From Pseudomonas fluorescens (GTDB lineage: Bacteria > Pseudomonadota > Gammaproteobacteria > Pseudomonadales > Pseudomonadaceae): DNA of 64,000 nt. This document shows positions 6,951-26,192 of the stretch, in pieces (positions within the stretch are counted from its first letter, which is position 1; the number at the start of each line of letters is the position of its first letter). The translations under genes were made by a program, and so were the position numbers. The notes below the pieces were generated by a model. That model made no database searches. It was not told the DNA's origin and was given only the letters and a program-made list of their open reading frames with translations. The stretch lies in NCBI RefSeq assembly GCF_000802965.1, contig NZ_JSAK01000001.1:124001-188000 (forward strand). The letters are read 5' to 3'.

Positions 6951-7040
6951 CCCGTAGGAGCTGCCGAAGGCTGCGATCTTTTGATTTTGTTTTTCAAGAT
7001 CAAGATCAAAAGATCGCAGACTTCGGCAGCTCCTACGGGG
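6951..7040. repeat. REP pair between cpxR and the Spy-like gene
   Basis: Long inverted repeat with arms beginning CCCGTAGGAGCTGCCGAAGG (6951) and ending in the complementary block at 7040. The central part (TTTTGATTTTG / AAGATCAAGATC) extends the stem, so the whole 90 bases can fold into one hairpin in the cpxR-spy intergenic region. Confidence 0.9.
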
Positions 7041-23785: not shown

Positions 23786-23943
23786 GGCTGGTATGGCAGG
23801 ATGCTTCGAAGGAGCTTGATGCCAGTGTTATTGGGCAAGGCTGGGCCGCGGTTCTGGGGCTGGCCTTTGTACATCAAATATACGGGTATTGAGCAACGCC
23901 CCTCATCTTTCGGCTCATCTGCAGCGGAAATTTTATGTTCCGC

Positions 23944-23965
23944 TTCGTAAAAAAATATTTACGAA
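23944..23965. promoter_or_regulatory. PhhR/TyrR-type operator upstream of aroP
   Basis: Perfect palindrome TTCGTAAA-N6-TTTACGAA. It matches the site at 31241-31262 between phhA and phhR in 15 of 16 arm bases with identical spacing. PhhR is a TyrR-like activator/repressor recognising TGTAAA-N6-TTTACA-type sites, so this is a strong candidate for aromatic-amino-acid control of aroP. A short hairpin (AGCGGAA / TTCCGCT, 23923-23944) abuts it on the left. It lies about 670 bases before the aroP start. Confidence 0.75.
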
Positions 23966-24136
23966 TTTCCCGCTTTTCACCCATGGAGTCGATGGACCTT
24001 TAGCCCCGTAAGGAAATCCTGCCGAATTCGCGCCGTCATTGCTGATTGCGAGGCTCTTTCCCGGTTGTTTCGCAGGGCGGGTGAGGGTGTTATGCGCCCA
24101 TGCCTGTCGTGCAGGCCCTAACAACAAGGAGGCGCA

Positions 24137-24274
24137 ATGAACGCCGTGACTGACTTTCTCCGAGGCGACATCGACTTCGCCTTCAGTGACAACCCCTGCG
24201 GGTCTGTCCATTCCTTTGCCGCTATTGAACACCTTCTTGCAAGCCCCGGCCTGACGCTGCGCTATCCGCGCTGA
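24137..24274 (+). CDS. Possible 45-residue small protein in the aroP leader
   Basis: ATG with an ideal AAGGAGG ribosome site four to ten bases upstream, reading MNAVTDFLRGDIDFAFSDNP and ending LASPGLTLRYPR-stop. Phe is frequent (5 of 45). No homologue is recognised. It lies between the PhhR palindrome and a putative sigma-70 promoter. It could be a regulatory leader ORF or a real small protein; the strong ribosome site is the main evidence. Confidence 0.45.
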   Translation: MNAVTDFLRGDIDFAFSDNPCGSVHSFAAIEHLLASPGLTLRYPR

Positions 24275-24285
24275 TCAAGCGATGT

Positions 24286-24314
24286 CTGGCAGCAGGCGGT
24301 TACGGGTGTACAAT
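24286..24314 (+). promoter_or_regulatory. Putative sigma-70 promoter for aroP
   Basis: CTGGCA (24286-24291), 17-base spacer, TACAAT (24309-24314). Transcripts from here would have a leader of about 310 bases before aroP, including the short Trp-containing reading frame at 24510. Confidence 0.5.
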
Positions 24315-24509
24315 GCGCGGCGTTTTAACTGTGACTCAACTGCGTATCCGCGCATTTTGCGCCTGTCGGCTGTCATGACTCGTTTGCTTCCAGCATTCAG
24401 TTCGATTGCCCAAGGCCAATAAACTCAAGGCTATCCGCCTTGTTCACTCCGCCGCGTCACGAGCGTGTCGGGTTCGATTTCGTCACAGATAAAAACAAGC
24501 AGGTGACGC

Positions 24510-24572
24510 ATGACCGTTGTAAATACGCTGAACTCCTGGTGCCTGCGCTGGGGTTTGATCGGTGCCGCTTAA
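24510..24572 (+). CDS. Candidate 20-residue leader peptide with two Trp codons
   Basis: ATG...TAA encoding MTVVNTLNSWCLRWGLIGAA, with CAGGTGAC as ribosome site just upstream and ending 60 bases before the aroP start. Trp10 and Trp14 in so short a peptide directly upstream of an aromatic amino acid permease suggest a translation-sensing leader. No clear terminator/antiterminator pair is seen, so a TnaC-like arrest or Rho-dependent mechanism would be needed. Function is inference. Confidence 0.45.
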   Translation: MTVVNTLNSWCLRWGLIGAA

Positions 24573-24632
24573 TGCCGTTTCCAAGCAGCAACGTCTACTG
24601 AACATCATCAAACCTTGCGTGAGACCCTTTTC

Positions 24633-26045
24633 ATGAGTGGACAAAACTCGCATTCAGGCGAGCTGAAACGCGGCCTGAAAAATCGCCACATTCAATTGAT
24701 CGCCCTCGGTGGCGCGATTGGTACCGGTTTGTTCCTCGGCTCGGCCGGGGTACTGAAATCCGCCGGCCCGTCGATGATCCTCGGCTACGCCATTTGCGGC
24801 TTCATTGCCTTCATGATCATGCGCCAACTGGGCGAAATGATCGTCGAAGAGCCAGTGGCCGGTTCCTTCAGCCACTTCGCGCACAAATACTGGGGTGGTT
24901 TCGCCGGTTTCCTGTCGGGCTGGAACTGCTGGATTTTGTACATTCTGGTGGGCATGTCCGAGCTGACCGCAGTCGGCAAGTACATCCACTACTGGGCGCC
25001 GGACATCCCGACCTGGGCCAGCGCCGCTGCGTTCTTCGTGCTGATCAACGCGATCAACCTGGCCAACGTCAAAGTGTTTGGCGAAGCGGAGTTCTGGTTC
25101 GCGATCATCAAGGTCGTGGCGATTGTCGGGATGATTGGCCTGGGTAGCTACCTTCTGGTCAGCGGCAATGGCGGCCCGCAAGCGGCGGTCAGCAACCTGT
25201 GGACCCACGGCGGCTTTTTCCCGAACGGTGTCAGCGGTCTGGTGATGGCCATGGCGATCATCATGTTCTCCTTCGGCGGCCTGGAAATGCTCGGTTTCAC
25301 CGCAGCTGAAGCCGACAAGCCGAAAACCGTGATCCCGAAAGCGATCAACCAGGTGATCTACCGGATCCTGATTTTCTACATCGGCGCCCTGGTGATCCTG
25401 CTGTCGTTGACCCCATGGGACAGCCTGCTGACCACGTTGAACGCCTCCGGCGACTCCTACAGCGGCAGCCCGTTCGTGCAAGTGTTCTCGATGCTCGGCA
25501 GCAACACCGCCGCGCATATCCTTAACTTCGTGGTCCTGACGGCGGCGTTGTCGGTGTACAACAGCGGCACCTACTGCAACAGCCGTATGCTGCTGGGCAT
25601 GGCCGAACAGGGTGATGCGCCGAAAGCGCTGGCGAAGATCGACAAGCGCGGCGTGCCGGTGCGTTCGATCCTGGCCTCGGCTGCCGTGACACTGATCGCG
25701 GTACTGCTGAACTACCTGATCCCGCAACACGCGCTGGAACTGTTGATGTCGCTGGTCGTGGCCACCCTGGTGATCAACTGGGCGATGATCAGCTTCTCGC
25801 ACTTCAAGTTCCGCCAGCACATGAACAAGACCAAGCAGACGCCGCTGTTCAAGGCCCTGTGGTACCCCTACGGGAACTACGTTTGCCTGGCGTTCGTGGT
25901 GTTTATCCTTGGCGTGATGCTGTTGATTCCGGGGATCCAGATCTCGGTGTACGCGATTCCGGTGTGGGTCGTGTTCATGTGGGTTTGCTATGGCATCAAG
26001 AACAAGCGCAGTGCACAACGCGCCTTGCAGCCAGCAGTGGAATAA
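24633..26045 (+). CDS. aroP: Amino acid permease, aromatic (AroP-like)
   Basis: 470 residues of the APC/AAT family: LKRGLKNRHIQLIALGGAIGTGLFLGSAG in the first helix, GEMIVEEPVAGSFSHFA, FSFGGLEMLGFTAAEADKPKTVIPKAINQV, VYNSGTYCNSRMLLGMAEQGDAPKAL. About 12 membrane segments. The subfamily includes AroP, PheP and ProY; assignment to aromatic substrates rests on the PhhR-like operator upstream and the phh genes 2.6 kb away. Start at 24633 (SGQNSHSGELK...) because the upstream in-frame start at 24615 lacks a ribosome site. Confidence 0.85.
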   Translation: MSGQNSHSGELKRGLKNRHIQLIALGGAIGTGLFLGSAGVLKSAGPSMILGYAICGFIAFMIMRQLGEMIVEEPVAGSFSHFAHKYWGGFAGFLSGWNCWILYILVGMSELTAVGKYIHYWAPDIPTWASAAAFFVLINAINLANVKVFGEAEFWFAIIKVVAIVGMIGLGSYLLVSGNGGPQAAVSNLWTHGGFFPNGVSGLVMAMAIIMFSFGGLEMLGFTAAEADKPKTVIPKAINQVIYRILIFYIGALVILLSLTPWDSLLTTLNASGDSYSGSPFVQVFSMLGSNTAAHILNFVVLTAALSVYNSGTYCNSRMLLGMAEQGDAPKALAKIDKRGVPVRSILASAAVTLIAVLLNYLIPQHALELLMSLVVATLVINWAMISFSHFKFRQHMNKTKQTPLFKALWYPYGNYVCLAFVVFILGVMLLIPGIQISVYAIPVWVVFMWVCYGIKNKRSAQRALQPAVE

Positions 26046-26105: not shown

Positions 26106-26192
26106 CTGTAGGAGCTGCCGAAGGCTGCGATCTTTTGATCTTGATCTTAAAAAGCAAGATCAAAAGATCGCAGCCTTCGGCAGCTCCTACAG
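26106..26192. repeat. REP pair between aroP and arfB
   Basis: Long inverted repeat, arms CTGTAGGAGCTGCCGAAGGC (from 26106) and the complement ending at 26192; like the one at 6951-7040 the stem continues into a GATC-rich centre, giving a nearly unbroken 40-bp hairpin. Confidence 0.9.

Follow-up and report, generated by a model that had tools for sequence, protein, structure and literature searches.

Leader frames whose translation opens a structure over the start of the next gene form a known class, including translational coupling and the erm-type attenuators, and TnaC and the trp leader peptides are known tryptophan leader systems. In Pseudomonas aeruginosa, PhhR controls hpd, and in Vibrionales a COG0733 tyrosine transporter is predicted to be under TyrR, both according to one study (PMC5343134). 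A second study reports that Crc regulation of P. aeruginosa aroP2 was lost once the CA motif had been removed (PMC3480352), and the table of Crc-affected genes in a third gives a value of 2.6 for P. putida AroP2 (PP_4495) (PMC3003667). The open-licence literature on aroP, Crc/Hfq, PhhR, hpd/maiA/hmgA and riboswitches, taken at the level of titles and abstract starts among the matches listed, holds no description of the leader or the element reported here.

The locus that we analysed lies in a 64,000-nucleotide stretch of Pseudomonas fluorescens DNA (contig NZ_JSAK01000001.1, positions 124,001 to 188,000 of the forward strand; hereafter ‘the window’) and resembles each of these systems in part. 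With the PhhR-controlled hpd operons of Pseudomonas it shares the box, the approximate distance from box to start and a match to the hpd start, whereas hpd, maiA and NSS are gone here and aroP is the sole intact gene left. With P. aeruginosa aroP2, likewise an aromatic amino acid transporter gene, it shares an A-rich AANAANAA beside the ribosome site, a likeness in motif; here, in contrast, it is the loop of a conserved hairpin that carries the motif, a covarying hairpin lies before this one, and in the present clade a 20-codon frame follows ahead of aroP. Like erm-type attenuators and cases of translational coupling, the locus has a short upstream frame, a stem from its codons to the downstream start and little spacer; unlike in those systems, the frame is a relic of another transporter gene, and we found no evidence of a stalling signal. 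A small Trp-containing frame before a Trp-related gene also recalls TnaC and the trp leader peptides, from which the locus differs in that no terminator-like site was found on the + strand of 23786-24640 and in that the Trp codons are inherited and replaceable.

The four features that the original prediction had singled out in the 850-base aroP leader are all present: the palindrome at 23944, the 45-codon frame at 24137 behind AAGGAGG, CTGGCA-N17-TACAAT at 24286, and the 20-codon frame with Trp10 and Trp14, whose end is separated from the aroP ATG (24633) by exactly 60 bases. Together with those that our comparisons added, the features are as follows (window coordinates):

23944-23965, no strand: PhhR/TyrR-type palindrome TTCGTAAA-N6-TTTACGAA, an exact site, inherited from the hpd promoter region
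24119-24148, + strand: hpd relic (ribosome site plus first codons)
24137-24274, + strand: 45-codon frame behind AAGGAGG, codons 1-5 corresponding to hpd
24286-24314, + strand: sigma-70-like site CTGGCA-N17-TACAAT, its -10 hexamer coinciding with maiA Tyr-Asn codons
24302-24370, + strand: relic of the 3' part of maiA (..YNARRFNCD..)
24416-24514, + strand: structured 5'UTR element, model R1 (own-genome match G000:C1:148416-148514)
24426-24442, + strand: hairpin P1 CAAGGCTATCCGCCTTG, with two-sided base changes seen by eye, uncounted
24448-24472, + strand: hairpin H1, with a CAYRA-type loop and covarying pairs
24481-24508, + strand: hairpin H2, nearly invariant, containing part of the Shine-Dalgarno sequence
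24491-24498, + strand: AAAAACAA in the H2 loop, an Hfq/Crc CA motif (AANAANAA) by comparison across element loops
24510-24572, + strand: 20-codon leader frame MTVVNTLNSWCLRWGLIGAA with Trp10 and Trp14, a relic of the SNF/NSS start by nucleotide alignment
24544-24559, + strand: 5' strand of stem P4 (leader-frame codons 12-17), from alignment pairing
24607-24621, + strand: 3' strand of stem P4, from alignment pairing, adjoining the weak aroP Shine-Dalgarno sequence GUGAG
24633-26045, + strand: aroP, aromatic amino acid permease

The aroP product is an AA_permease whose best NCBIfam model is AroP, with a score below that model’s cut-off; aroP-like matches, paralogues included, occur in 225 of 249 same-genus genomes. 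The leader DNA at 24434-24640 is matched fully or partly in 212 of the 249, and some of these copies precede an NSS gene. A paralogue of aroP in the same genome (L002, G000:C6:133988-134118), 82% identical over 131 start bases, is without this leader.

That the leader is the scar of a tyrosine-catabolism operon of the order hpd-(hmgA-fahA)-maiA-NSS-aroP, most of which has been deleted, is at the level of sequence comparison well shown, since the leader holds relics of the hpd start, the maiA end and the NSS start, and operons in all stages are found. The listed features are, on this evidence, leftovers of the operon and not four independent inventions. The hpd start of L407 matches the window with 93% identity over 30 nt (E 2e-7), covering the ribosome site and the first codons, and among eight leaders compared with the hpd start, L008, L011 and L030 match it with 97% over 32 nt; the sequence around the -10 hexamer matches maiA of L072 with 88.6% over 70 nt (E 2.7e-19). 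We identified hpd and maiA by the NCBIfam models TIGR01263 and TIGR01262, respectively; fahA and hmgA are presumptive names, and fahA has no NCBIfam match at 1e-20. An hmgA-like ORF sits between hpd and fahA in L371.

The 20-codon frame aligns gap-free with 37 NSS starts, with 29-35 of 54 nt identical (mean 32.9), against a mean of 14.8 and a maximum of 30 in 20000 for codon-shuffled frames compared with two of the 37; the two Trp codons of the leader frame fall opposite Trp10 and Trp14 in the start of the SNF transporter. In the 45 NSS loci examined by script, NSS is preceded by a maiA end, and in some genomes without an aroP match the leader precedes an intact SNF transporter gene (PF00209; sodium-dependent transporter in NCBIfam). 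The closest solved relative of this transporter by sequence is 4us3, a sodium-dependent transporter that we take to be MhsT, and COG0733 is presumably the SNF family. An NSS orthologue at ≥87% identity is found in 18 of 249 genomes, and at E 1e-100 the number is 136, more distant paralogues included. The 14 aligned NSS loci have the 5'UTR in common; 12 of them begin MTREKPKNLWLSRWGF and two begin MPRE.

Gene orders were scored by tblastn at ≥60% identity in the 118 loci listed from a pattern scan and in 10 others. The scan demanded an ATG right after the ribosome site, so its class counts are lower bounds and no census, and its loci span at most 8 kb, so gene orders may be incomplete. Among the matches listed, hpd-fahA-maiA-NSS occurs at least 12 times, fahA-maiA-NSS at least 7, maiA-NSS at least 4, hpd-maiA-aroP at least 3, hpd-maiA-NSS, fahA-maiA-NSS-aroP and NSS-aroP at least twice each, fahA-maiA-aroP-aroP at least once, other partial orders at least 5 times and aroP alone at least 87 times; three loci gave no match. 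Our own genome lacks hpd of the operon type, its best hpd match being 55% identical and located elsewhere.

On this evidence, internal deletions removed most of hpd through maiA, and most of NSS, from an ancestral hpd-hmgA-fahA-maiA-NSS-aroP operon. Before aroP they left the promoter region of hpd including the PhhR-type box, the start of hpd, the end of maiA and, from NSS, the 5'UTR and the opening 20 codons. The order and number of the deletions we infer from break points that differ. In this case the ends of deleted genes have been put together into a regulatory leader, with former neighbours supplying the promoter region, the ribosome site, the leader frame and also the partners in pairing. 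The intact, half-deleted and fully joined forms in related species amount to a natural deletion series, and the function of each leader part is therefore directly testable.

Two observations on individual loci may be added here. In the window, 150 bases (24152-24301) separate hpd codon 5 from the maiA relic, and relatives carry at this position a strong hairpin, CCGCCCGAG..CTCGGGGCGG, that the window is without. Pseudotabrizicola is an alphaproteobacterium; a MAG bearing this label (L303) contains hpd-fahA-maiA-NSS together with the element, and is probably a mis-binned Pseudomonas contig.

The original prediction had placed aroP under PhhR control. A PhhR-type site does occupy the same place in 30 of 30 aligned leaders, with the left GT and the right AC kept, but the GTAAA/TTTAC pair is exact in only three of them, the window included, and imperfect but in place in the other 27; what is supported is the conserved place of a PhhR-type site, with control by PhhR as a possibility. 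The distance from box to hpd start is 194-205 bases in hpd loci and 190 in the window, and upstream of hpd a strict GTAA-N8-TTAC is found in 5 of 10 loci and a loose one in 9 of 10. The sigma-70-like match at 24286-24314 is the sole one in 23786-24640, and weak on its own because shuffles expect 0.4 (sd 0.7). Mean pairwise difference is 0.056 at 24285-24315 as compared to 0.204 at 24335-24352, and the -10 hexamer TACAAT is, by alignment, a relic of the maiA Tyr-Asn codons. By the same kind of comparison, the 45-codon frame starts as an hpd relic, and all 30 leaders compared preserve its ribosome site and opening codons. As a conserved small protein we rejected this frame: the product is found in 1 of 249 genomes (our own), and the frames diverge past the first codons. 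In place of the 20-codon frame, all 164 distinct long leaders have an open frame of at least 19 codons, and in 147 of them it is exactly 20 codons long.

A search with a model (R1) built from 42 UTRs found the 5'UTR element that precedes this frame in 196 of 298 family genomes, which belong to 9 of the 19 genera sampled. In all 47 family loci that we inspected (52 inspected in all), the element precedes aroP or NSS; at one weak match (L259), aroP lies about 200 bases further on. In the pattern scan, it is followed by aroP or NSS in each of the 118 loci listed (aroP at least 91, NSS at least 27, two of the 27 listed NSS loci ending inside the gene). An order-wide search matched 16 of 293 genomes, 11 of them family members; the five matches outside the family (E 3e-4 or worse) have other genes as neighbours, and we regard them as chance matches. 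Rfam 15 gave no match at gathering in the window and none at E up to 10 in 24250-24700.

In a MAFFT alignment of 42 sequences, H1 shows two-sided changes in 5 of 9 pairs with 97.1% of cells paired, and in a model-fitted alignment of 75 in 8 of 9 pairs with 94.9% of cells paired. For the whole structure, cells with two-sided changes number 33 against 8.6 in shuffles (MAFFT, 42) and 59 against 14.4 (model-fitted, 75), the set of 75 being hand-picked and its alignment fitted to the model, while the MAFFT alignment is independent of the model. H2, in which 98.8% and 97.8% of cells are paired, respectively, shows little covariation because it is nearly invariant (0.006 differences per site in linker and H2). 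These comparisons point to a structured RNA without an Rfam entry, which may tie catabolite control to aromatic amino acid uptake. L403 (G118) and L400 (G485) have a second, weaker element that precedes a further transporter gene (an aroP that follows either aroP or NSS), and leader frames of 15-17 codons follow such elements in G154, G485 and G486.

The CA motif AANAANAA fits 65 of 75 element H2 loops (it is missing from the other 10) and 22 of 30 distinct loops, with a shuffled mean of 6.0 and maximum of 12. Our own genome contains Hfq once and CrcZ twice above cut-off (CrcZ-type RNAs at G000:C34:97930-98338 and G000:C5:219640-220033). In both respects, a CA motif near the ribosome site and Hfq plus CrcZ-type RNA in the genome, the locus agrees with Hfq/Crc targets. 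A pattern with the P. aeruginosa aroP2 motif found nothing in the 25 genomes of genus g9.

The best reading of these data, we infer, is catabolite-controlled translation of the leader frame, coupled to that of aroP; joined to the operon-scar origin, it makes a combined explanation that we consider likely to be right. Transcription of aroP would start at the promoter that once served hpd, at the conserved site derived from maiA, or at both, and ribosomes would load at AGGTGA in hairpin H2, where Hfq with Crc would bind the A-rich loop and block loading while better carbon sources are present. Translating the 20-codon frame would open P4, in which codons 12-17 would otherwise be paired with the region just before aroP, and aroP, with its own poor ribosome site, would then be translated by coupling or reinitiation. 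In lineages without the 20-codon frame, the same ribosome site is followed directly by aroP.

P4 comprises 15 pairs and one bulged U, with 98.4% of cells paired in 42 leaders, and was also found independently by RNAalifold; the alignment took in 42 of 44 representative leaders, L082 and L340, both without P4, being left out. Leader codons thus pair with the downstream start region, as in translational coupling, in 42 of 44 representatives; the pairing shows no covariation because it hardly varies. Across 25 leaders, the P4 strands have 0.014 and 0.000 differences per site, whereas codons 8-12 have 0.083 and the loop 0.186; since the stretch from the 3' strand to aroP varies little as well (0.020), conservation of that strand may stem from the ribosome site, and codon 7, which lies outside P4, is as invariant (CTG in 147 of 147). 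The distance from ATG to stem is 40 nt in 133 of 135 leaders, a count restricted to leaders with both P4 strands, and nine different loop lengths occur. None of 37 NSS starts has the G at nt 48 by which P4 is completed, and P4 therefore probably arose after NSS was lost. The minimum-energy fold of the whole leader contains P4 and H1, not H2, and is no better than that of shuffles (z 0.00); the energy of the frame-spacer duplex is likewise ordinary (0.363 of shuffles reach it). P4 is lost in L302 through a 5-base gap and, by eye, broken in L184.

Among the 118 pattern-scan loci listed, aroP stands behind the 20-codon frame in at least 73, behind another leader frame in at least 12, and fused to the leader start codon in at least 6; at least 27 have NSS instead. 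In L078-L080, aroP’s own ATG lies right behind the leader ribosome site. The 13-codon frames of L010, L013, L304, L355 and L394 stop within the aroP start (ATGA); in L311 the frame has 12 codons and ends just before that start, and a shifted frame in L166 also ends at the start. In L081, L082 and L340 the leader frame has 33 codons (MTR..NAWRP..GLV), through 15 additional bases in frame; in L082 and L340 (both checked) it is without a stem to aroP.

The 20-codon frame might instead be a slowly decaying relic without function, with conservation near aroP owed to the gene’s own ribosome site and to recent ancestry, and with aroP starting independently. Such decay would account for the lack of covariation in P4, the near-equal conservation of the bases between P4 and aroP, the absence of the frame in several lineages and a pN/pS of 0.66 overall and 1.62 in codons 2-7 (0.40 in codons 8-20), values on which we rejected a conserved peptide (the tally took 19-, 20- and 29-codon frames containing Arg/Trp-Gly-Leu; a repeat without these demands again gave 147). 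With the peptide so loosely constrained, nucleotide-level constraint seems to dominate. Several observations speak against decay: in the same leaders synonymous differences are 0.139 in the frame against 0.388 in aroP, codons 13, 15 and 16 show zero synonymous change in 147 leaders (69 distinct frames), and the distance to the stem is fixed while the loop length varies freely. Frame lengths in the 164 long leaders are 19 (1), 20 (147), 28 (1), 29 (2), 33 (4), 34 (8) and 37 codons (1), none being shorter than 19. We regard decay as unlikely, if a reading still to be reckoned with. The other reading of the frame puts the original prediction in translational terms, as attenuation by tryptophan: ribosomes short of Trp would stall at Trp10 or Trp14, hold P4 open and so raise aroP translation. 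Trp10 does lie just before the P4 5' strand and Trp14 inside it, and Trp is kept at codon 10 in 136 and at codon 14 in 145 of 147 leaders. Both, however, are inherited from the NSS start, and the strict conservation characteristic of a Trp attenuator is not found: codon 10 is Phe in 6, Arg in 4 and Gly in 1 of the 147 distinct leaders (11 non-Trp), changing more than codons 9 and 11 (3 each) and less than codon 8, and codon 14 is Arg in two, exceptions that alter just the bulged base. The conservation of codon 14 is explicable because its nucleotides are needed for P4, and several lineages are without the frame carrying both codons. Sensing by the paired Trp codons is therefore poorly supported and very unlikely, and of the predicted control by leader translation we retain the coupling of aroP, which the kept frame and the conserved stem make plausible.

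Further upstream, the element itself could be read as a metabolite-sensing riboswitch for aromatic amino acids, in which H1, the CAYRA loop and the invariant linker would form the pocket, and the H2 5' strand GUCACAG would have two alternative partners, GUGAC at the ribosome site (off) and CUGUGAC at 24329-24335 (on). If true, this would make the element a new class of riboswitch responding to an aromatic amino acid, its sensor being H1 and linker and its switch H2, for which the upstream CUGUGAC would compete. The covarying H1, the near-invariant linker and H2, and the tie to two unrelated transporter families would fit, as would a full 7-base upstream complement within 260 bases in 148 of 168 aroP copies and 38 of 39 NSS copies and the CUGUGAC/GUCACAG pair in the minimum-energy fold. 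CUGUGAC, however, consists of maiA Asn-Cys-Asp codons, which is enough to explain its presence in NSS copies, and we therefore keep the pairing as part of this alternative only; moreover, CUGUGAC is absent in 20 of 168 aroP copies, some of them in g9 genomes, the H2 loop is already explained by the Hfq/Crc motif, and the element is confined to its nine genera of one family. We give a riboswitch a small chance, and prefer catabolite control acting through the H2 loop.

Just behind aroP, at window positions 26107-26191, lies a long and nearly perfect REP-like inverted repeat (GTAGGAGCTGCCGAAGGCTGCGATC...), the left arm of which recurs at window position 6954.
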